The notes beneath the pieces were generated by a model, which made no database searches, was not told the origin of the DNA, and saw nothing but the letters and a program-made list of their open reading frames with translations. A stretch of 64,000 nt of DNA from contig JAICJI010000006.1 in assembly GCA_025928515.1 (NCBI GenBank), forward strand, positions 1-64,000, read 5' to 3'. Position 1 is the first letter of the stretch, and each line of letters opens with the position of its first letter. The stretch comes from Thermoleophilia bacterium. GTDB taxonomy: Bacteria; Actinomycetota; Thermoleophilia; Gaiellales; Gaiellaceae. Positions 3,243 through 29,877 of the stretch are shown here, in pieces. The position numbers and the translations under genes were made by a program.

Positions 3243-3673
3243 GAGTCGAGCTCCAGCTCGCGGGGATTCTGGGCCTCGTGCGGATGCTCGGGCCCGGCGT
3301 AGATCTTGAGCTTCGTGATCTGCTGGCGCGCGAGCCGGTTCTTGGGGAGCATCCCCTTCACGGCGACGCGGAGCACCTCGGTCGGGCGACGGTCGAGCTG
3401 TTCACGCAACGTCCGGCTGCGCAGGCCGCCCGGATAACCGGAGTGCCGGTAGTACCGCTTCTGGTCGAGCTTGTTGCCGGTCACCTGGATCTTCTCGGCG
3501 TTGACGACGATCACGAAGTCGCCCGTGTCGACGTGCGGCGTGAACTGCGGCTTCCGCTTGCCGCGAAGCGTGTCGGCGATCTGGGTCGCGAGACGGCCGA
3601 GCGTCTTGCCCTCGGCGTCGACGAGATACCACTCGCGCGTGATCTCCCCGGGTTTGGCGCTGTAGGTCTTCAT
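3239..3673 (-). CDS. rplM: Ribosomal protein L13 (uL13)
   Basis: Large-subunit protein needed early in 50S assembly. The 144-residue protein begins [20 protein letters not shown], carries [15 protein letters not shown] and the KGMLPKN motif near residue 105, and ends at the usual length. An upstream in-frame start exists but would add about 40 residues unlike the family, so ATG at 3673 is chosen. A possible -10 (TACAAT) lies about 50 bases upstream, inside the 3' end of the glycosylase gene, leaving a leader of roughly 40 bases. First gene of the rplM-rpsI operon. Confidence 0.97.
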
Positions 3674-3686
3674 AGGCTGTGCTGCT

Positions 3687-4232
3687 TCAAAGAAAGGGGC
3701 GGACTGGTGCCCGCCGGCGGCCGATTGTAGCGAAAGCCCGGCGCAATCCCTCCTCGAAAGCGGCCGCACCGCCGTGGGACGGGTGACGGACATACGGCGC
3801 TTCGAGCGCCTCGGCCGCGAGCCGTCCCACCGCGATCGCGGTGCGGCCCTGGGTGAGCTCCTCGAGGAACGGCGCCGAGGCTTCGACCTCGGCTCGCGTC
3901 GGCCGGCGATTCGACGTCTCGGTGCCGGGATGCGTCGGCACGACGTTCCACAGCAGCACGTCGTCCTCGACGCCGAACGCGCTGAGCACGCGGTGGACGA
4001 TCGTGGCCGTCGCCTCGGCGGGACCGAAGCCGGTGAGCTGGCGCTCGGACGTGAACGGGATCCCGCTGACCCGCGCCCCGCGATAGCCGGCGGCCTCGCC
4101 CACGAGGACGACCCGCGCGTCGGAGTGCGCTTCGAGATACGCGCTGAGCCGCTCGCGCCGCAGAGGTGACGCCGCGTACTGGTTGTACGTCTCGCCGATC
4201 TCCGTCTCGGCGAGCCGCTCTACGAGTCCCAG
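3687..4232 (-). CDS. Uracil-DNA glycosylase superfamily protein
   Basis: Predicted to excise uracil or related bases from DNA in base-excision repair. The conserved part runs from ETYNQYAAS through [20 protein letters not shown] (active-site region) to a HPSHGG motif near the C-terminus, the usual second motif of the UDG fold (PF03167 type). No ATG, GTG or TTG occurs in frame near the start of homology. The best candidate is CTG at 4232, giving 181 residues and overlapping the end of the upstream nitroreductase by 13 bases. Product family is clear; exact substrate and start are uncertain. Confidence 0.8.
3724..3729 (-). promoter_or_regulatory. Possible -10 element of rplM-rpsI
   Basis: TACAAT on the minus strand, 50 bases upstream of the rplM ATG and within the end of the preceding gene. 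It would give a leader of about 43 bases. No convincing -35 was found. Confidence 0.35.
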
Positions 4233-4825
4233 CGGTTCCAGCGGACGACCTCGTCGTGCCCGCGCCTTCGTTGCGAGAAGACGCTCGTCGCGCGATCCCA
4301 GTCGGGATCCTCGGCGGGATGGCCGACGGTCACGCCGGTCACGATCGTGAGGTCGTCGGGGATCCCGAGCAGCTCGCGCGCCTGCGCGTCCTGCTCGACC
4401 GGGACGCCGTAGACGCCGGCGCCGAGACCCTCCTCGATCGCCGCCAGCCACAACAGCATCAACGCCGCTCCGGCGTCGACGTGCCAGAACGGCACCGGCC
4501 ACACGATCTCGAGACCGCCCGTGATCGCGAGCTTGTCGGGCTGCCTGTAGCGGTCGTGGTAGTCCTGCTCGCGCGTGAGGACGAAGAAATGCGCGGCGGC
4601 CTTGAGGAACCACGCCCGCTCGCGCTCGTCGGCGTCGTCATCCATGAACGCCTCGATCAGCTCCGGGTCGTCGACGACGAGGATCCGCAGACCCTGGCTG
4701 TAGCCGGCGTTCGGCCCACGCCGCGCGGCACGCGCGATCCGCTCGAGCGTCTCGCGCGGGACGCGCTCGCCGGTGTAGCTGCGAACGGCGCGCCGCTTCT
4801 TGAGCAGGTCGTAGAAGGAACTCAT
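4220..4825 (-). CDS. Nitroreductase family protein
   Basis: FMN-dependent oxidoreductase of the nitroreductase fold, 201 residues. The N-terminus [19 protein letters not shown] is the typical flavin phosphate-binding arginine segment, followed by [17 protein letters not shown] and the interior [10 protein letters not shown] segment. The ATG overlaps the guaA stop as ATGA, so it is translated with guaA. Physiological substrate cannot be told from sequence; members reduce nitro compounds, quinones or act in cofactor remodelling. The long reading frame through guaA in the same frame is a shadow. Confidence 0.88.
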
Positions 4826-6372
4826 TCCCACTCGATCGTCGCGGGCGGCTTCGACGTGACGTCGAGCACCACGCGGTTGACGCCCGGGATCTCGTTCACG
4901 ATCCGCGCCGAGATCGTCTCCACGAGGTCGTACGGGAGCCGCGCCCAGTCGGCCGTCATCGCGTCGTCGCTCGTGACCGCGCGGATCACGATCGGGTAGC
5001 CGTACGTCCGCTCGTCGCCCTGGACGCCGACCGAGCGGACGGCCGGCAGGACGGCGAAGGACTGCCACAGCTCGCCGTACAGGCCGGCGCGCCGTACCTC
5101 CTCCTGCAGCACGGCGTCTGCCTGGCGCAGGATCTCGAGGCGCTCGGCTGTGACCGCACCGATGATCCGGATCGCAAGGCCGGGGCCGGGGAACGGCTGG
5201 CGCCAGACCATCCGCTCGGCCATCCCGAGCTCCTCGCCCACGCGCCGCACCTCGTCCTTGAAGAGCAGCCGCAGCGGCTCGACGAGCCGCATCTTCATGT
5301 CGGGAGGCAGGCCGCCGACGTTGTGGTGCGACTTGATCGTCGCCGCGACGCCCTCGGTGCCGCCCGACTCGATCACGTCGGAGTAGAGCGTTCCCTGCAC
5401 GAGCCAGCGCACGTCTCCGAGCTTCCGTGCCTCTTCCTCGAAGACGCGGCTGAACTCGCGGCCGATGATCTTGCGCTTGTCCTCCGGCTCCTCGACGCCG
5501 TCGAGCAGCTCGAGGAACCGCTCCTGCGCCTGCACGTGGACGAGTGGGACGTGGAAGTGCTCGCCGAACGTCTCGACCACCTGCTCGGCCTCGTCCTGGC
5601 GCAGCAGGCCGTGGTCGACGAAGACGCACGTGAGCTGCTCGCCGACGGCCTTGTGCACAAGCAGCGCGGCCACGGCCGAGTCGACGCCGCCCGACAGAGC
5701 GCAGAGGACGCGCTCGCGACCGACCTGCGCCCGGATGCGCTCGACCTGCTCCTCGATCACGGCGGCCGGCGTCCAGGCGGGCGGGGCGTCGGCCACCGAA
5801 TACAGGAAGTTCTTCAGCACGTCCATCCCGTGCGGCGTGTGGACGACCTCCGGATGGAACTGGACGCCGTACAGCCCACGCTCGGGTGCCTCGAACGCCG
5901 CGACCGGTGTGGCGGGCGAGCTGGCGACGACGCGCGCGCCCTCGGGGGCGGCGACGACGGTGTCGCGATGGGACATCCAGACCGTCTGCTCGGGCGGCGT
6001 GTCGGCCAAGAGCCGCGACTCGGTCGCCTCCATCGACGTCCGCCCGAACTCGGAGACGCCCGTGCGGTCGACGCGGCCGCCGAGCTCGAGCGCCATCAGC
6101 TGCGCGCCATAGCAGATGCCGAGCGTCGGGATGCCGAGCTCGAACAGAGCCGGATCGACGCGCGGCGCATCGTCGGAATAGACGGAAGAAGGGCCGCCGC
6201 TGAGCACGAGCGCGTACGGGTTCCGTGCGCGCACCGCCTCGGGCGTGATCTTGTGGCCGACGAGCTCGGAATAGACGCGGCACTCGCGCACGCGGCGCGC
6301 GATCAGCTGCGAGTACTGGCCACCGAGGTCGAGGACGAGAACGGGCCGGTCCTCGCGGACCGGAAGAGACAC
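4822..6372 (-). CDS. guaA: GMP synthase (glutamine-hydrolysing)
   Basis: Converts XMP to GMP using glutamine and ATP. The 516-residue protein has an N-terminal class I amidotransferase domain ([12 protein letters not shown]; catalytic Cys87 in LGICYGAQ; His in FHPEV), an ATP pyrophosphatase loop [13 protein letters not shown] near residue 224, and the C-terminal dimerization domain ending in the conserved KPPATIEWE. The GTG start is preceded by GAGGAGG at 8 bases. It lies 13 bases after guaB, so the two steps from IMP to GMP form one operon, followed by the nitroreductase. Confidence 0.98.
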
Positions 6373-6385
6373 GACCTGTGCCTCC

Positions 6386-7951
<1,566 letters not shown>

Positions 7952-20873: not shown

Positions 20874-21662
20874 TCAGCGCTCGAGCGGCAGCTCGTCGTG
20901 TCGGCTCCACTCGTGCCAGGAGCCGGCGTAGTTGCGCGCGTCGTAACCGGCGGCGCGCAGCGCGAGCGTCGCGAGAGCGGAACGCGAGCCCGAGTGGCAA
21001 TACGCGACGACCTGGGCGCCCTCGGGTAGGCCGACGAGCTCGCGGACCCGCTCAGGGGACGCGGGCCGTCCCGGCCCGTCGAAGAGCTCGCCCACGTCGA
21101 GATTCCGCGCTCCCGGGATGTGGCCCTGGCGCGGGTCGCATTGGTTGCCGCGCCGGCCGCCGTACTCGTCCGGGGTGCGGACGTCGAGGATCGTCAGCGT
21201 CTCGTCGCCGAGCCGGCCCAGCAGCTCCTGCCGTGTCGGAAACGCGCCGGGATTCGGCTCGAGATCGGCCTCCGCGTCGCGAACGTGCTCCAGCTCGACC
21301 GCGCCCTCGTCCAGCTCGCCGCCCCAGCCGGCGATGCCGCCGAGGAGGATCGCGACCTGCGGATGTCCCGCGAGCTCGGCCATCTGCGCCGCCGGCATCG
21401 CCCCGACGCCGTCGCCGCGGTCGACGAGCACGAGGCGCTCACGGCCCGTGATGCCGTGCCGCCTCAGCCGCAGCGCGATCTCCTGTGCGAGCGCGCGTGC
21501 CGACTCCTCGTCGGCCGCCGGTGGCGGAGAGCCGAGCACGAGCGGGCGCGAACCGGGGATGTGACCGCGCATGTGCGCATTCGGGCCGCGCACGTCGCCG
21601 ACGACGAGATCGCTCTCGCCCAGTTGCTCCGCAAGCCACCGGGAATCGACCACCGCCCTCAC
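20874..21662 (-). CDS. Sulfurtransferase with two rhodanese domains
   Basis: Predicted thiosulfate/3-mercaptopyruvate sulfurtransferase, 262 residues. The second rhodanese domain has the active loop VAYCHSGSRSAL with its cysteine; the first has VDRGDGVGAM in that position and no cysteine, the usual inactive N-terminal copy. The end motif YAGSWHEWS is typical of SseA-like enzymes. GTG overlaps the stop of the GST gene as GTGA. It is the last gene of the long minus-strand run beginning at HPPD. Confidence 0.93.
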   Translation of the reverse strand: MRAVVDSRWLAEQLGESDLVVGDVRGPNAHMRGHIPGSRPLVLGSPPPAADEESARALAQEIALRLRRHGITGRERLVLVDRGDGVGAMPAAQMAELAGHPQVAILLGGIAGWGGELDEGAVELEHVRDAEADLEPNPGAFPTRQELLGRLGDETLTILDVRTPDEYGGRRGNQCDPRQGHIPGARNLDVGELFDGPGRPASPERVRELVGLPEGAQVVAYCHSGSRSALATLALRAAGYDARNYAGSWHEWSRHDELPLER

Positions 21663-22237
21663 AGCGCGGCGACGATACCTACTTCCGCCGCGATCGCGGG
21701 TCGCTCCTCGAGCCGCGCGAGCCAGTCGGCGACCGCCGGGAAGCCGTCGAGGTCGACACCGAGCATGTCGCGTGCGCGCAGGAACCAGGGGACGAGCGCG
21801 ATGTCCGCGAGCCCGTACTCCGCGCCGCCGAGGTACGCCTGCTCGCCGAGCAGCGAGTCGAACCGGGCCAGCGCAGCGTCGAGCTGCTCGGCCGAGCCGG
21901 TCTCGCCGCGCCGCACGGCGTAGTACGGATCGGTCAGGTCGTGGTCGCGGAAGATGCGGAGCCTGACCGCACCGCGATCCGCGGGATCCGCGGGCAGCAG
22001 CGGCGGGTCCGGGTAGCGCTCCTCGAGGAACTCCATGATCACGGCCGACTCGGGCAGCGGCCGGCCCTCGCCCTCCTCGACTACGGGCACACGCCCGGTC
22101 GGGTTCTTCTCGTAGATCCAGGCCGGGCGGTCGGAGAGATCGACCTCGACGACGTCCACCTCGACGCCCTTCTCGGCCAGAACGATCCGAACGCGTGCGC
22201 AGTACGGACAACGCGGCGCGTCATAAAGCGTGATCAC
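21659..22237 (-). CDS. Glutathione S-transferase fold protein
   Basis: A 192-residue protein with an N-terminal thioredoxin-like domain containing CPYC at about residues 10-13 and the cis-proline segment GRVPVVEEG, then an alpha-helical C-terminal GST domain. CPYC suggests a glutaredoxin-like or SspA-like member. Actinobacteria usually lack glutathione, so the thiol partner may differ. It lies in the same run as the homogentisate genes, so maleylacetoacetate isomerase is a thought, but CPYC is not the usual active site of that enzyme. ATGA overlap with the gene upstream. Confidence 0.85.
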   Translation of the reverse strand: MITLYDAPRCPYCARVRIVLAEKGVEVDVVEVDLSDRPAWIYEKNPTGRVPVVEEGEGRPLPESAVIMEFLEERYPDPPLLPADPADRGAVRLRIFRDHDLTDPYYAVRRGETGSAEQLDAALARFDSLLGEQAYLGGAEYGLADIALVPWFLRARDMLGVDLDGFPAVADWLARLEERPAIAAEVGIVAAL

Positions 22238-23934: not shown

Positions 23935-25149
23935 CTACAGGTGCGAGGTCAGCCCGGCGCCCGAGGCGTCGGCGCCCTCGGGCGAGTCGCCGTTCTGCGC
24001 GTTCTCGTACCAGCTGCGCCAGTACGTGCCGTCGTCGAGCTGCTCCGCGAACTTCGTGAGCTTCAGCGGATTGAAGGTGTCGCACATCACGGCGAGCTCA
24101 TGCGTCTCGTGCAGGCCTAGTGCAGCCTCGGCGAGCCCCGGCTGCGGCCCGTGCGGCAGGCCCGACGGATGGAGCGTGATCGAACCGACCTCCACGCCCT
24201 TCCGCGAGCCGAAGTTGCCGGAGACGTAATAGATCATCTCCTCGGACTGCAGATTCGAGTGGTGGTACGGGATCGGCACCGCCTGCGGGTCGAAGTCGAG
24301 CTTACGGGGGCAGAACGAGCAGATCACGAAGTTCGGCCCCGCGAACGTCTGGTGCGACGGCGGCGGCTGGTGGATGCGGCCGGTGATCGGCTCGAAGTCG
24401 TGGATCGAGAACGTCCACGGATAGAGGTAACCGTCCCAGCCGACGACGTCGAAGGGGTGGTAGTCGACGACGTAGGTCTGGTAGCCTCCGCGCACCCGCA
24501 CCTTGACCGGATACTCGCCGCGCTCGCGCACCGTGTGCAGCTCGGTCGGTGGGTGGATGTCGCGGTGGTAGTACGGCGCACCCTCGACCATCTGCCCGTA
24601 CTGGTTCCGGTACCGCCGCGGGATCTCGATCAGCCCAGGCGTCTCGAACACGAGATAGCGCTGCAGGCCTTCGGGCCTGAAGCGGTACGTCGTACCGCGC
24701 GGCACGACGACGTAGTCGCCGTCCTTGTAGGGCAGGTCGCCGAAGATGGTCTCGAGCGTGCCGGATCCCTCGTGGACGAAGATCACCTCGTCGCCTTCGC
24801 CGTTGCGGAAGAAGTAGTCCATCGACTCCGACGGGCGGCAGAGTGAGATCTCGACGTCGTTGTTCCACATCAGGAGCCGTCGCCCGGTGACCTCGTCGCC
24901 GCTCGGCTCGGTATCGAACGTCTTGAAATGCAGATGCCCGTGCTGCTCGGGAACCCACTCCTCGCGCTCGATCGGGTCGAAGCCTCCGAGCTCCATGACG
25001 CGGCAGGGCGACTGGAGGTGGTACAGGATCGACTCGTTCCCGGTGAAGCCCTCGAGGCCCATCACCTCCTCGGTGAGAAGGGTCCCGTTGTCGCGGAACT
25101 GGACGTGACGCTTGCGCGGAACGTCGCCGAGGCGCTGGTAGAACGGCAT
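23935..25149 (-). CDS. hmgA: Homogentisate 1,2-dioxygenase
   Basis: Iron(II) ring-cleaving enzyme that opens homogentisate to maleylacetoacetate in tyrosine and phenylalanine breakdown. The 404-residue cupin protein shows EGFTGNESILYH-type N-terminus, the PFDVVGWDGYLYPWTFSI segment, PPPSHQTF and near the C-terminus the metal-binding region with IPYHHSNLQSEEMIYY and SLHP-like HPSGLPHGPQPG. Length is a little under the human enzyme (445). ATG preceded by TACGCT ending 6 bases upstream, so it can be expressed apart from HPPD, which lies 3.6 kb upstream. Confidence 0.94.
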   Translation of the reverse strand: MPFYQRLGDVPRKRHVQFRDNGTLLTEEVMGLEGFTGNESILYHLQSPCRVMELGGFDPIEREEWVPEQHGHLHFKTFDTEPSGDEVTGRRLLMWNNDVEISLCRPSESMDYFFRNGEGDEVIFVHEGSGTLETIFGDLPYKDGDYVVVPRGTTYRFRPEGLQRYLVFETPGLIEIPRRYRNQYGQMVEGAPYYHRDIHPPTELHTVRERGEYPVKVRVRGGYQTYVVDYHPFDVVGWDGYLYPWTFSIHDFEPITGRIHQPPPSHQTFAGPNFVICSFCPRKLDFDPQAVPIPYHHSNLQSEEMIYYVSGNFGSRKGVEVGSITLHPSGLPHGPQPGLAEAALGLHETHELAVMCDTFNPLKLTKFAEQLDDGTYWRSWYENAQNGDSPEGADASGAGLTSHL

Positions 25150-25165: not shown

Positions 25166-26125
25166 CTAGCTCAGGGCGAGCTCAGCAAGCCTGCGCCCGA
25201 CCGCGGGCGCGAACTTGAAGCCGTGCCCCGAACAGGCGGAGCCGATGACGACACGGCCGCGCCGCTCGAGGATGAACTCCTCGTCCGCCGTCGTCGTGTA
25301 GAGGCACGTCTGCGCCTCGACGGGCTCGGGGTCAACGTCCGGGAAGCGCTCGCCGACCCACGACGCGATGCGCTCGACGATCGCGGGATCCGGCGGCGCC
25401 TCGGTGCCGGGATCGGCCTCAGCGCCGGCGTGGTGCGCACCTGCCTTGAGCCCGTACACCGGGTCGTGGAGCGAGTACATCCCGTGGCCGCCGGTCGCGG
25501 CGTTGAGATCGACGATGGACGGCACCGGCGGGCCCTCGCGCTTGAAATAGGCGACCGTCTCGCGCGTCACCTTGACCGGGAGATCCGGGACGAGGTCGCG
25601 GATCCACGAGCCGGCGGTGACGACGACCACCTCCGCGTCGAGCTCGTCGGTCGACACGATTCGCCGGTTCATCTCGACCTCGACGCCGGCCGCCTCGAGA
25701 AACGCGTGGCGCGCACGATCGGCGAACACGACGCCGGCGTCGGCGACGTGCAGCGCGGTCCAGCCATCCGGAAGCGTCGCGCCGAGCTCCCTGGCCTTGT
25801 CCCTGTCAAGAAGCCGGTACGGCACGCCGCATTCGGCCAGCGCGCGGGCCGACGCGAGCGATCTGTCGCGCGCGAGCTCGAGCAGTCCGTAGAGACCGAG
25901 CAGGCTCGGATCGAGCTCCTGCCAGCCCGCATATGCGTCCTGCGCGAAGCGCACCCACTCCGCCTCGGGATACGCGACGCGGAAAATGCGCGTGCGGCCG
26001 TGACTCGAGCCGCGGTGGTGGTCGAGGTCGAACTGCTCGTGCACGGTCACCTCGGCGCCGCGTTCGCGGAGCGCCCACGCGGTCGCGCAGCCCATCACTC
26101 CGGCGCCGACGACGGCGACCCTCAT
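25166..26125 (-). CDS. Monomeric sarcosine oxidase / N-methyl amino acid oxidase-like flavoenzyme
   Basis: FAD enzyme of the DAO fold, 319 residues, shorter than the usual 370-390. It has the Rossmann motif VAVVGAGVMGCATAWAL, the GSSHGRTRIFRVAYPEAE segment typical of monomeric sarcosine oxidase, and TCLYTTTADEEFILE, whose cysteine matches the one that carries covalent FAD in that family. It ends with VIGSACSGHGFKFAP. It likely oxidises an N-methyl or secondary amine. ATG overlaps the FAH-like gene as ATGA. Its link to tyrosine breakdown is not obvious. Confidence 0.9.
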   Translation of the reverse strand: MRVAVVGAGVMGCATAWALRERGAEVTVHEQFDLDHHRGSSHGRTRIFRVAYPEAEWVRFAQDAYAGWQELDPSLLGLYGLLELARDRSLASARALAECGVPYRLLDRDKARELGATLPDGWTALHVADAGVVFADRARHAFLEAAGVEVEMNRRIVSTDELDAEVVVVTAGSWIRDLVPDLPVKVTRETVAYFKREGPPVPSIVDLNAATGGHGMYSLHDPVYGLKAGAHHAGAEADPGTEAPPDPAIVERIASWVGERFPDVDPEPVEAQTCLYTTTADEEFILERRGRVVIGSACSGHGFKFAPAVGRRLAELALS

Positions 26126-26652
26126 CGAACGATCAGGTCTCCCGGGAACAGGCTCGTGTTCTCGGCCGCCTGCGCGACGAGCCGCTCCCAGTCGACTCCC
26201 GGCGGCACGTCCTCGTCGGGCGTCGTCACCAGCGGGCCGAGCGTGAGCGCGAAGTCGCGTTGCTTCGCGCCCCGCAGCTGCGGCGCAACCCATTCCACGA
26301 GCGGCGTGAAGCCGCCGATCGTGCCGTCGGCACCGATGACCGCGGCGATGTGCTCGACGGGCTCGGCTCCCGGAACGCCGGGATCCTCGTCCGCAGCCTT
26401 GATCGCCGCCGGGTTGGCGAAGGCGAAATCGCCGGAGTCGTCGAAGATCCGCACCGACGGCGGATGGAGCACCGGCGCACGGAAGACCACGTCCGTGAGC
26501 GGATGCTCCGCGTGTTCGCGCGCCTGGCCGCCGCCTGTGAAGAACGCCTGCAGCGTCTGCGCCGCCAGCTGGATCACCCTGTCGCCGTCGATTCGCCCCG
26601 GCCAGCCGCGCTCCAGGTGCACGTCGCGGGGCGAGAACATGCACAGCTTCAT
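26122..26652 (-). CDS. Fumarylacetoacetate hydrolase-like protein, divergent
   Basis: A 176-residue protein that follows the layout of FAH-domain proteins (VFRAPVLHPPSVRIFDD, AAVIGADGTIGGFT, RDFALTLGPLVTTPDE, FPGDLIV) but is short. At the position where the family has ExE before LAVVIG, this protein has VEHIAAVIG, so one or both metal-binding glutamates seem lost; the NDxSARD loop is also not recognisable. By position it could be the hydrolase completing tyrosine breakdown, or a pseudoenzyme. ATGA overlaps on both sides (CDF gene and oxidase gene) show it is translated in series. Confidence 0.7.
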   Translation of the reverse strand: MKLCMFSPRDVHLERGWPGRIDGDRVIQLAAQTLQAFFTGGGQAREHAEHPLTDVVFRAPVLHPPSVRIFDDSGDFAFANPAAIKAADEDPGVPGAEPVEHIAAVIGADGTIGGFTPLVEWVAPQLRGAKQRDFALTLGPLVTTPDEDVPPGVDWERLVAQAAENTSLFPGDLIVR

Positions 26653-27992
26653 TGGGGCTCCGTGTGGACGACGACGTCGGCGATCTCCGGCCGCTCGCGG
26701 CGGATGAGCTCCTCGATCCTGCTCGCGTCGGCGTGTGCGGCGGCGAGCGTATCGGCGCCGAGCCGCAGCGTGAGGTAGGCGACGAGACCCTCGTCCGTGT
26801 CGACGAAGCGAAGGTCGGCCGGATCGACCCCCAGCTCTGTCTGGACGATGCGGCGCACGGTCGCTGCGTCGCCTGCCACCTCGGTGCCCGCAGCCTGCTC
26901 GCCGAGCGGCTCGAGATGCGTCTGCACCGACGACACCTCGGGAACGGCCCGCTCGATCGCCCGCTCGACCTGCTCGGCGATCGCGTGCGCCTCCTCGAGT
27001 GCGAGCCCGCCGGGCAACTTGAGGTGGAGCGACAGCTGGGTCCCGCTCTCGACCGAGAGAACCGAGACGTTGTGCACCTCGCGGACGCGCGGTACGTCGA
27101 GCGCCGCGGCGTGCGCGCGCTCGCGCACGTCCGCGTCCGCAGGGCCGGCCGGCTCGACGTGGACGACGACGTCCGCTTCCGGGAGAGCCGCCTGCACCGC
27201 GCGCTCGACGAGGTCGGCCGCCGCGTGCCCCTGGCCGACAGCTGCTCCGTAATCGACGCCGATCACGACGTCCGCGAACACCCGCCCGGCCGCCTGGCGC
27301 ATGCGCAGACGGCGCAGCTGCACCGCGGGCCGCATGTCGACGATCGCCCTCCGCGCGGCCTCCTCTGCGGCCGCGGGAGCGCGATCCATGAGGACGTCCA
27401 CGTTGCGCCGCATCAGGCGCGCCGCAGCGACCAGAACGAGTGCGGCGACGAGGAGCGCCGCCACGGCATCAGCACGCGGATAGCCGGAACGCACGAGCAG
27501 CAGGCCGACGAGGACGGCGACCGAGCCGCCCAGGTCGCTGCCGAAATGGAGCGCGTTCGACGCGAGCGCGGGGCTCGAGTAGGCGCGGGCCGCACGCCAC
27601 GACGCCGTCGTCCGCGCGACGTCGATGCAGATCACGATCGCGACGACGACGAGCGCGTACCAGGTGGCGTGCACTGAGGTGCCGCCGTCGACGAGGCGCA
27701 CGATCGCCCGCCAGACGATGACGACGCTCGCGATGACGAGGATCGCGCCCTCGGCGAGCGCGGCGAGATGCTCGGCCTTCCCGTGCCCGTACTGGTGGCC
27801 GGGATCGGCGGGACGGATCGCAACGCCGACCGCAAAGAACGTCAGGAGCGCTGCGATCAGATCCGTGCCTGAGTGCGCTGCTTCCGAGACGAGCCCGAGG
27901 CTGTGGGTCGCCAGGCCCGTGCCCAGTTTCAGCGCGATCAGCGCAAGCGCAGCGAAGACCGACCAGAGCGCTGCTTTCCGCTGGGCTTCCAC
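26649..27992 (-). CDS. Cation diffusion facilitator transporter with three C-terminal domains
   Basis: Metal/proton antiporter, 447 residues. Six membrane spans occupy about residues 8-195, with metal sites near SEAAHSGTD (His40, Asp44) and SNALHFGSD (His149, Asp153). Unlike ordinary CDF proteins with one cytosolic dimerization domain, there are three tandem copies: about 212-282, 292-363 and 376-447, each ending in a VVVHxEP or VQTHLEP-like strand. Metal could be zinc, iron or manganese. The GTG has a TACGCT 7 bases upstream, so an internal promoter is likely. Confidence 0.92.
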   Translation of the reverse strand: MEAQRKAALWSVFAALALIALKLGTGLATHSLGLVSEAAHSGTDLIAALLTFFAVGVAIRPADPGHQYGHGKAEHLAALAEGAILVIASVVIVWRAIVRLVDGGTSVHATWYALVVVAIVICIDVARTTASWRAARAYSSPALASNALHFGSDLGGSVAVLVGLLLVRSGYPRADAVAALLVAALVLVAAARLMRRNVDVLMDRAPAAAEEAARRAIVDMRPAVQLRRLRMRQAAGRVFADVVIGVDYGAAVGQGHAAADLVERAVQAALPEADVVVHVEPAGPADADVRERAHAAALDVPRVREVHNVSVLSVESGTQLSLHLKLPGGLALEEAHAIAEQVERAIERAVPEVSSVQTHLEPLGEQAAGTEVAGDAATVRRIVQTELGVDPADLRFVDTDEGLVAYLTLRLGADTLAAAHADASRIEELIRRERPEIADVVVHTEPQ

Positions 27993-28779: not shown

Positions 28780-29877
28780 CTAGAGGTTGCCGCGCAAGGC
28801 CTGCTCGCGCTCGATCGCCTCGAACAGCGCCTTGAAGTTGCCCTCACCGAACGTCGTCGCGCCGTGCCGTTCGATCACCTCGAAGAAGACCGTCGGCCGG
28901 TCCTGCGCCGTCTTCGTAAAGATCTGGAGCAGGTATCCGTCGTCGTCGCGGTCGACGAGGATCTTGTGCTCCTGCAGGATCGGCCACTCCTCCGCGATCT
29001 CGCCGACGCGACCCGGTGCCTCGTCGTAGTACGAGTCGGGCGTGTCGAGGAACAGGAAGCCGCGCTCCTTCATCGCCTCGACCGTGCCGACGATGTCCTT
29101 CGACGCGAGCGCGATGTGCTGCGCGCCGGCACCGCCGTAGAACTCGACGTACTCCTCGATCTGGCTCTTGCGCTTGCCCTCGGCGGGCTCGTTGATCGGG
29201 AACTTGACCTTGCCCGAGCCGTCCGACATGACCTTCGACATCAGAGCCGAGTACTCGGTCTGGATCTGGTCGTCGCCGAAGTGGAGGATGTTCGTCATCC
29301 CGAAGACGCGCTCGTAGAACTCGACCCAGTGGTTCATCCGGCCGAGCTCGACGTTGCCGACGACGTGGTCGATGTTGAGGAGACCGACGCCGGGGTCGGC
29401 GTGGCCGTTCTTCGCGACCGACACGTAGCCGGGCAGGAACGGCCCCGCATAGTCGGAGCGGTTGACGAACGTGTGGATCGTGTCGCCGTACGTCGCGATC
29501 GCCGAGAGCTCCACTGCGCCGAACTCGTCCTCGTCGCGCTTCGGCTCCATCACGCTGCGGGCGCCGCGCGAAACGGCCTCGCGGTAGGCCTGCGTCGCGT
29601 CGGGGACGGTTAGCGAGATGTCGCGGACACCGTCGCCGTGCCGCGCGCAGTGCTTCGTGATCTCGTGCTCCTCGCGCAACGCGCTCGTGACGACGAAGCG
29701 GACGTCCCCCTGCTCGAGGACGTAGGAGGCGCGGTCGCGGACTCCCGTCTCCGGCCCGGCATACGCGGTACGGGTGAAGCCCATCGCGTGCTCGTAGAAG
29801 TACGCGGCTTGCTTTGCGTTGCCGACCCAGAGCTCGACGTGATCCCAGCCCAGCAGCGGCATGAAGTCTTCGGCCAT
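28780..29877 (-). CDS. hppD: 4-hydroxyphenylpyruvate dioxygenase
   Basis: Fe(II) enzyme turning 4-hydroxyphenylpyruvate into homogentisate. The 365 residues form two vicinal-oxygen-chelate halves. The iron ligands are visible in the C-terminal half: His in LLNIDHVVGNVELGRMN, His in GAGAQHIALAS and Glu in VFFEVIERHG. LLGWDHVELWVGNAKQAAYF opens the first half. The ATG has CATAAT 6 bases upstream and no ribosome site. It heads the long minus-strand run that also includes homogentisate dioxygenase. Confidence 0.96.
   Translation of the reverse strand: MAEDFMPLLGWDHVELWVGNAKQAAYFYEHAMGFTRTAYAGPETGVRDRASYVLEQGDVRFVVTSALREEHEITKHCARHGDGVRDISLTVPDATQAYREAVSRGARSVMEPKRDEDEFGAVELSAIATYGDTIHTFVNRSDYAGPFLPGYVSVAKNGHADPGVGLLNIDHVVGNVELGRMNHWVEFYERVFGMTNILHFGDDQIQTEYSALMSKVMSDGSGKVKFPINEPAEGKRKSQIEEYVEFYGGAGAQHIALASKDIVGTVEAMKERGFLFLDTPDSYYDEAPGRVGEIAEEWPILQEHKILVDRDDDGYLLQIFTKTAQDRPTVFFEVIERHGATTFGEGNFKALFEAIEREQALRGNL

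Follow-up and report, generated by a model that had tools for sequence, protein, structure and literature searches.

A predicted pseudoenzyme of the fumarylacetoacetate hydrolase fold, maintained by selection in the tyrosine-degradation neighbourhood of Gaiellaceae

The slot gene and its neighbourhood

The window (the whole stretch of DNA that was analysed, 64,000 nucleotides in length) belongs to an incomplete metagenome-assembled genome (MAG; G000, 2.02 Mb, 66 contigs, 78.7% complete) of the family Gaiellaceae. It carries a minus-strand run of genes encoding 4-hydroxyphenylpyruvate dioxygenase (HppD), a DUF2071 protein, a cation diffusion facilitator (CDF), the protein studied here, a DAO-type oxidase, homogentisate 1,2-dioxygenase-like HmgA, a DNA glycosylase, a GNAT protein, and a GST-like protein (Table 1), the glycosylase and GNAT being presumed identities that we assigned from their sequences. 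The gene under study is a real open reading frame (ORF) with an ATG start that shares 4 nt with the upstream CDF gene and 4 nt with the downstream oxidase gene, and it is flanked by HppD on one side and HmgA on the other. We refer to its position, here and in related genomes, as the slot, and call slot genes intact or dead according to whether the catalytic residues of the fumarylacetoacetate hydrolase (FAH) superfamily are kept or lost.

Several of the neighbours have features of their own. HmgA scores 58 bits against TIGR01015, for which the cut-off is 510, yet passes both Pfam HgmA cut-offs and shares 73-94% identity with the full-length copies in the family; the window's HmgA is apparently a divergent short form. 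The GST-like protein falls below the TIGR01262 cut-off of 171 bits, and the SspA model outscores TIGR01262. The DAO-type oxidase occupies the position beside the slot gene only in genera g1 (the genus of the window), g6, g15, and g30. In the CDF protein, a long extension at the C-terminus includes three ZT_dimer-like stretches; the CDF gene still precedes the slot gene where HppD and HmgA are gone. Among loci in which both genes could be measured, the 4-nt overlap between the CDF and slot genes occurs in 14 of 26 dead loci versus 5 of 22 intact loci, which is no more than suggestive of a special bond between the two genes through translational coupling.

Table 1. Features of the slot gene and neighbouring genes in the window
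Feature	Positions	Strand	Basis
Pseudoenzyme gene; FAH-fold protein of 176 aa, dead by sequence	26122..26652	-	ORF, predicted fold, orthologues, selection
N-terminal domain, residues 1-70	26443..26652	-	Alignment; omega 0.072 in g1
Residues 69-76 (IFDDSGDF), point of loop deletion	26425..26448	-	Alignment with intact orthologues
VEH (99-101) replacing metal-binding ExE	26350..26358	-	Alignment
VEWVAPQ (119-125) replacing NDWSARD	26278..26298	-	Alignment
QRDFALT (131-137) replacing GKDFATS (Lys to Arg, Thr to Leu)	26242..26262	-	Alignment
Cation diffusion facilitator (CDF) gene	26649..27992	-	Located ahead of the slot gene in most loci, dead or intact
FAD-dependent oxidase (DAO; sarcosine/N-methyltryptophan-oxidase-like)	25166..26125	-	Profile match, synteny
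Homogentisate 1,2-dioxygenase-like HmgA	23935..25149	-	Profile match
4-Hydroxyphenylpyruvate dioxygenase HppD	28780..29877	-	TIGR01263, 446.7 bits
GST-like protein, possible maleylacetoacetate isomerase	21659..22237	-	TIGR01262, 80 bits

Predicted fold and loss of the active site

The product of the slot gene is almost certainly a dead FAH fold, judging from its alignment with orthologues and its predicted structure. Searched alone, the 176-residue protein had no FAH match in Pfam, NCBIfam, or PDB sequences; NCBIfam returned no match up to an E-value of 1, short of the TIGR01266 cut-off, and the protein lies under the Pfam PF01557 cut-off, its FAH membership being visible only through its orthologues and fold. 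An AlphaFold model built with 42 orthologues had a pLDDT of 90.2 and a pTM of 0.85, with its least confident part at residues 31-50 (block means of 59 and 74). The top Foldseek hit of the model was the maleylpyruvate hydrolase 6jvv_A (E 1.7e-9), on which it superposed with a Z-score of 18.0 and an rmsd of 2.2 A over 167 residues; it matched YisK (8suu) with a Z-score of 17.3 and mouse FAH (1qcn) with 14.8. An intact orthologue was modelled as a complete FAH. Five orthologues that differ in length from the window protein, four of them dead and one intact, scored 35.6 to 171 bits against PF01557 (cut-off 23.9), the 171 bits belonging to the intact protein, a clear member. The window protein thus falls within the FAH superfamily both by its predicted fold and by descent, through same-slot orthologues that are homologous to PF01557 proteins. 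Annotation with Pfam and NCBIfam overlooks the short dead forms and would label the longer ones FAA_hydrolase.

The preliminary description had read an FAH-like protein apparently without its metal ligands, and its residue statements, that the ExE motif reads VEH and that the NDxSARD loop is not recognisable, match the sequence exactly. Residues E125-L126-E127 of the intact form correspond to V99-E100-H101 of the window protein, which has neither the ExE motif nor the Asp of NDxxARD that mark an FAH enzyme. That description had overlooked two further features. At residues 69-75 of the window protein, a loop of approximately 27 residues (DFYAFEQH...EWYExP, running on into VFYF), which contains a conserved Asp and a conserved His, is deleted, and the protein also lacks the GSGTVGTGCILE loop and the final strands at the C-terminus; the DFYxxxEH His loop and the C-terminal GSGT loop of the enzymes are missing as well. 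Intact forms are approximately 270 aa long and read DFYAFEQH, ELDYELE, NDWSARDLQR, GKDFATS, and GSGTVGTGC, whereas dead forms range from 175 to 243 aa, with a C-terminus that shortens progressively. Compared with the non-classical FAHs of PF01557 (6jvv, Cg1458 4dbf, and the mycobacterial 4pfz), the window protein has the same predicted fold over its whole length (Z 16.6-18) but lacks the metal ligands, the catalytic loop, and the C-terminal loop. With the classical fumarylacetoacetase (TIGR01266; 1qcn) it has pathway context and fold in common, but that role is filled in the window genome by a separate gene.

The same losses recur among the orthologues. Residue counts were made over 31 dead and 27 intact aligned sequences (in G036 an assembly gap covers NDWSARD), and the residues D69, H76, E125, E127, K167, and T234 in intact numbering were each present in all 27 intact and in none of the 31 dead sequences, which bears out the reading of an FAH fold stripped of its ligand and catalytic residues. 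Replacements were often shared among the dead sequences, with E127 to Arg and K167 to Arg each in 24/31, and the Asp of NDW to Glu and the Arg of SARD to Pro each in 22/31. One dead gene, that of G126, is an intermediate unlike the others, in which NDWRARD is kept and YGLQ stands in place of YELE.

The preliminary description had offered, as one alternative, a new hydrolase whose metal site differs, a reading that we extend to a ligand-binding protein of this kind. K130 and D133, two polar residues close to the former site, are present in all dead sequences and would suit such a site; against this, VEH is not conserved in orthologues, position 101 being His in the window protein alone and the second metal-binding Glu being replaced by Arg in 24 of the 31 dead sequences, and neither the substrate loop, which carries the catalytic His, nor the C-terminal loop has been retained. 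We consider a new metal site very improbable because VEH is not conserved.

Retention, selection, and the tyrosine pathway

A match to the slot gene was found in 76 of 103 genomes of the family, most of which are incomplete MAGs, and 60 loci were fetched and the slot gene read in each. The gene lies 3' of the CDF gene in most loci, and its syntenic orthologues are intact in most Gaiellaceae genera; 41 genomes were scored as intact-slot, of which 40 were read and one (G107) is truncated where its contig stops. Dead slot genes number 33: 12 in g1, 10 in g19, six in g33, four in g20 (G034, G118, G123, and G124), and one in g21 (G126, one of two g21 genomes), with g20 and g21 containing dead as well as intact forms. 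Within g1, 12 of 16 genomes carry the gene, including that of the window, with identities of 64-86% among the other eleven copies. Alignments and trees exclude two cut dead genes (L107 and L108) and one intact-type gene with a broken frame (L132, in G016). In that last locus (contig C31), the gene is split across two frames beyond NDWSARDLQRAEMK, owing to either a recent break or a mistake in the assembly.

The dead gene is maintained by purifying selection. In codon models, omega was 0.108 for the dead genes of g1 (12 sequences; 0.072 over the N-terminal 68 codons and 0.120 over the remainder), 0.073 for the four closest g1 sequences, 0.091 for g19 (eight sequences), 0.046 for g33 (five sequences, excluding G100), and 0.038 for a dead trio of g20, beside 0.042 and 0.033 for intact sets of g20 and g6; except in the set of four close sequences and the g20 dead trio, these values are rough, the sets being near-saturated with long trees. 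An omega of 1 was rejected in all seven sets (2dlnL 225 to 729). Since the gene is carried by 12 of 16 genomes of the genus at an omega of 0.108, it is not a chance ORF. The neighbouring genes in g1 had omegas of 0.036 (HmgA), 0.044 (HppD), and 0.053 (CDF), and because the value for the dead gene is two to three times as high, constraint on it is relaxed. Together with the predicted fold and the lost catalytic residues, this selection makes the protein a putative pseudoenzyme, as the preliminary description had suggested.

A dispensable, functionless gene in slow decay, its frame kept open by high G+C content and by coupling to its neighbours, would account for this weaker constraint and for the progressive shortening from 243 to 175 aa, and the gene is indeed lost in G011 and G073, where other ORFs occupy the slot and the FAH gene is absent, from which we take the slot gene to be dispensable. 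We nevertheless regard decay as improbable, given omegas of 0.038-0.108 with omega = 1 rejected, the lack of internal stops in the frames of all dead genes, and N-terminal 68 residues that are 78-97% identical in nine dead pairs at only 46-72% identity of fourfold sites. An overlapping gene or RNA constraint behind this N-terminal conservation was considered and rejected, as fourfold-site identity there resembles that of the remainder in 14 pairs. The ORFs between the CDF and oxidase genes in the two loci without a slot gene span 7029-7754 (L143, G011) and 3447-5087 (L149, G073); we take the slot ORFs to be DUF4287/DUF5655-like, accompanied in G073 by a presumably GMC-oxidoreductase-like frame.

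A full FAH gene elsewhere in the genome, which the preliminary description had proposed looking for, is present: contig C28 of the window genome encodes a classical fumarylacetoacetase (TIGR01266, 362 bits against a cut-off of 375) that keeps DFYSSLEH, FELE, and NDWSARDIQAWE (NDWSARDIQ). Among HmgA-bearing genomes, a classical FAH was found in 19 of 21 with a dead slot versus 0 of 39 with an intact slot (Fisher p 1e-13, relatedness ignored). The two dead-slot exceptions are G014 (78% complete), in which no classical FAH was found, and G118, which has an 86-aa fragment of one at a contig edge. Two further dead-slot genomes, G092 and G093 (53% and 63% complete), have a classical FAH and no HmgA match. 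HmgA has moved away from the slot in g19 and G118; in the latter, HppD adjoins HmgA away from the slot (L141, contig C77), and in G011 the classical FAH adjoins HppD (L142, contig C322). It is very likely that the catalytic step was taken over by the classical FAH.

No HppD, HmgA, or classical FAH was found in nine other dead-slot genomes (the six of g33 together with G034, G123, and G124), which had only weak glyoxalase-type matches to HppD; G089 (g19, 58% complete), in which HmgA and the classical FAH were likewise not found, was left out of this count. The preliminary description had also proposed a sensor that binds a dicarbonyl compound, which becomes unlikely because the protein has lost the loop that contacts substrate and the gene persists in these nine genomes, where the pathway was not found. 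Across the dead lineages, catalysis was very probably displaced or unneeded and the scaffold was retained.

The 39 HmgA-bearing intact-slot genomes have no TIGR01266 match, and most Gaiellaceae seem, on the sequence evidence, to use the short, non-classical FAH-family protein of the intact slot as their fumarylacetoacetate hydrolase. One such intact protein (L118) had no NCBIfam model above its own cut-off.

FAH-fold enzymes are oligomers, and the dead protein might persist as a regulatory partner that activates or stabilises another FAH-family enzyme in mixed oligomers. One study describes a dead paralogue of deoxyhypusine synthase in trypanosomatids in such a role (PMC3663545), and at least one other PF01557 match occurs in every dead-slot genome examined, although that of G118 is only a contig-edge fragment. 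We looked for an FAH-type partner shared by all dead-slot genomes and found no paralogue type common to them: an L001-type protein and a classical FAH are present in G007 (95% complete), whereas the sole type in G034 (93% complete) is a third one that shares 37% identity with the L001-type protein of G007, and the nine genomes above have neither the classical enzyme nor the pathway. A regulatory partnership is thus rather unlikely, if less so than slow decay.

History of the loss and possible retained function

Loss of catalysis is likely to have arisen more than once, and probably four or more times. On the tree of the neighbouring CDF gene, the dead label requires six changes, at least four of which are forced by well-supported branches, and a single dead clade is rejected (p-AU 7.3e-9); the tree of the downstream glycosylase agrees weakly (p 0.045). 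The tree of the N-terminal region (68 columns) rejects a dead clade of g1, g19, and g33 (p 0.004), though not a clade of all dead sequences (p 0.119), and clusters g19 and g33 with the intact proteins of G102 and G029 (support 100/99). A single ancient dead allele, distributed across Gaiellaceae through homologous replacement of the slot gene and making one pseudoenzyme family, would instead fit the FAH protein tree, in which a single dead clade was not rejected (p-AU 0.501), and the agreement of g1 with g19 and g33 in having Arg at 101, Glu at 120, Pro at 124, and Arg at 132, in the numbering of the window protein. The CDF and glycosylase trees, the placement of g19 and g33 with intact proteins, and the intermediate state of G126 oppose this, and we judge a single allele unlikely. 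If loss was indeed repeated, then the shared Arg/Glu/Pro/Arg replacements are convergent, though those of g1 and g19/g33 could instead reflect common descent of that half.

We propose that the ancestral slot protein would have been an intact non-classical FAH of the kind that would hydrolyse fumarylacetoacetate in most Gaiellaceae, an activity suggested by synteny. A classical fumarylacetoacetase encoded elsewhere, which co-occurs with the dead slot, would then have taken over the step in g1, and following this presumed order of events the resident protein was stripped of its metal ligands, its catalytic loop, and the loops of its C-terminus while keeping a predicted FAH fold and staying under purifying selection. 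Other lineages would have followed the same course, having either the classical enzyme or no trace of the pathway. Strong preservation without an active site suggests a second, non-catalytic job of the protein, and because catalysis was probably lost repeatedly with the scaffold kept, the intact ancestor may already have had this function, which we hold to be somewhat better than an even bet. To the explanation as a whole, a descendant of an FAH whose catalysis was displaced and whose scaffold was kept for a second function, we assign a probability of roughly 0.6. A more specific reading, to which we give slightly less than even odds in all its parts together, is that an ancient second function resides in the Gaiellaceae FAH scaffold, probably in its N-terminal domain; that in four or more lineages the enzyme was independently pared down to that function after a classical fumarylacetoacetase had been gained or the tyrosine pathway lost; and that in two of these an identical Arg/Glu/Arg set came to replace the metal site.

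No natural pseudoenzyme of the FAH superfamily was found in the literature searched, and the slot protein would provide one, probably new within a known superfamily and produced repeatedly. Several lineages together also amount to a natural experiment, because the persistence of a protein that has lost catalysis can be compared there with a named cause, either a substitute enzyme or the absence of the pathway. The displaced-enzyme explanation predicts moonlighting by intact FAH-fold enzymes and singles out the N-terminal domain; such moonlighting has reportedly been proposed for YisK. In a review of pseudoenzymes, catalysis loss is described as tolerated where the ancestor also had a binding function (PMC10211241), whereas here the loss tracks a substitute enzyme or an absent pathway; the word 'fumarylacetoacetate' does not occur in the text of that review.

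Residues 1-70 form the best-conserved part of both dead and intact proteins (in 13 sampled sequences, 69-89% identical to the window protein). Invariant in 43 dead and intact sequences are L3, F6, P8, R15, G16, W17, G19, G23, V26, L29, A30, A31, Q32, F38, G40, G41, R45, H47, and a few others, and residues 15-48 include the motifs RGW and LAAQTLQxFFTGGGxAREH. The low model confidence at residues 31-50 might fit an exposed binding segment. Our best guess is that the N-terminal domain would make a protein-protein interaction in the manner of YisK, of which a catalytically dead variant is said to keep localisation and cell widening and an N-terminal E30A variant to lose both. For this FAH-fold enzyme of B. 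subtilis, published work reports a role in envelope remodelling and Mbl targeting (PMC10825186, PMC12372405) and describes an active enzyme (PMC12176266, PMC10825186). YisK (8sky, 8sut, 8suu) resembles the window protein in combining an FAH fold with an N-terminal domain, but is catalytically active whereas the window protein is dead by sequence. By this analogy, a cytoskeletal or envelope role of the pseudoenzyme is conceivable though doubtful; MreB was present in 18 of 18 genomes tested, which leaves a YisK-like role possible, nothing more.

We also searched 299 genomes of the class for the N-terminal domain in the form CMFxP...RGW and did not find it beyond Gaiellaceae. At E <= 0.001, 81 of the 299 genomes had a match; matches outside the family were only weak (20.7-54.3 bits), and the slot gene scored 110-153 bits in most genera of the family.
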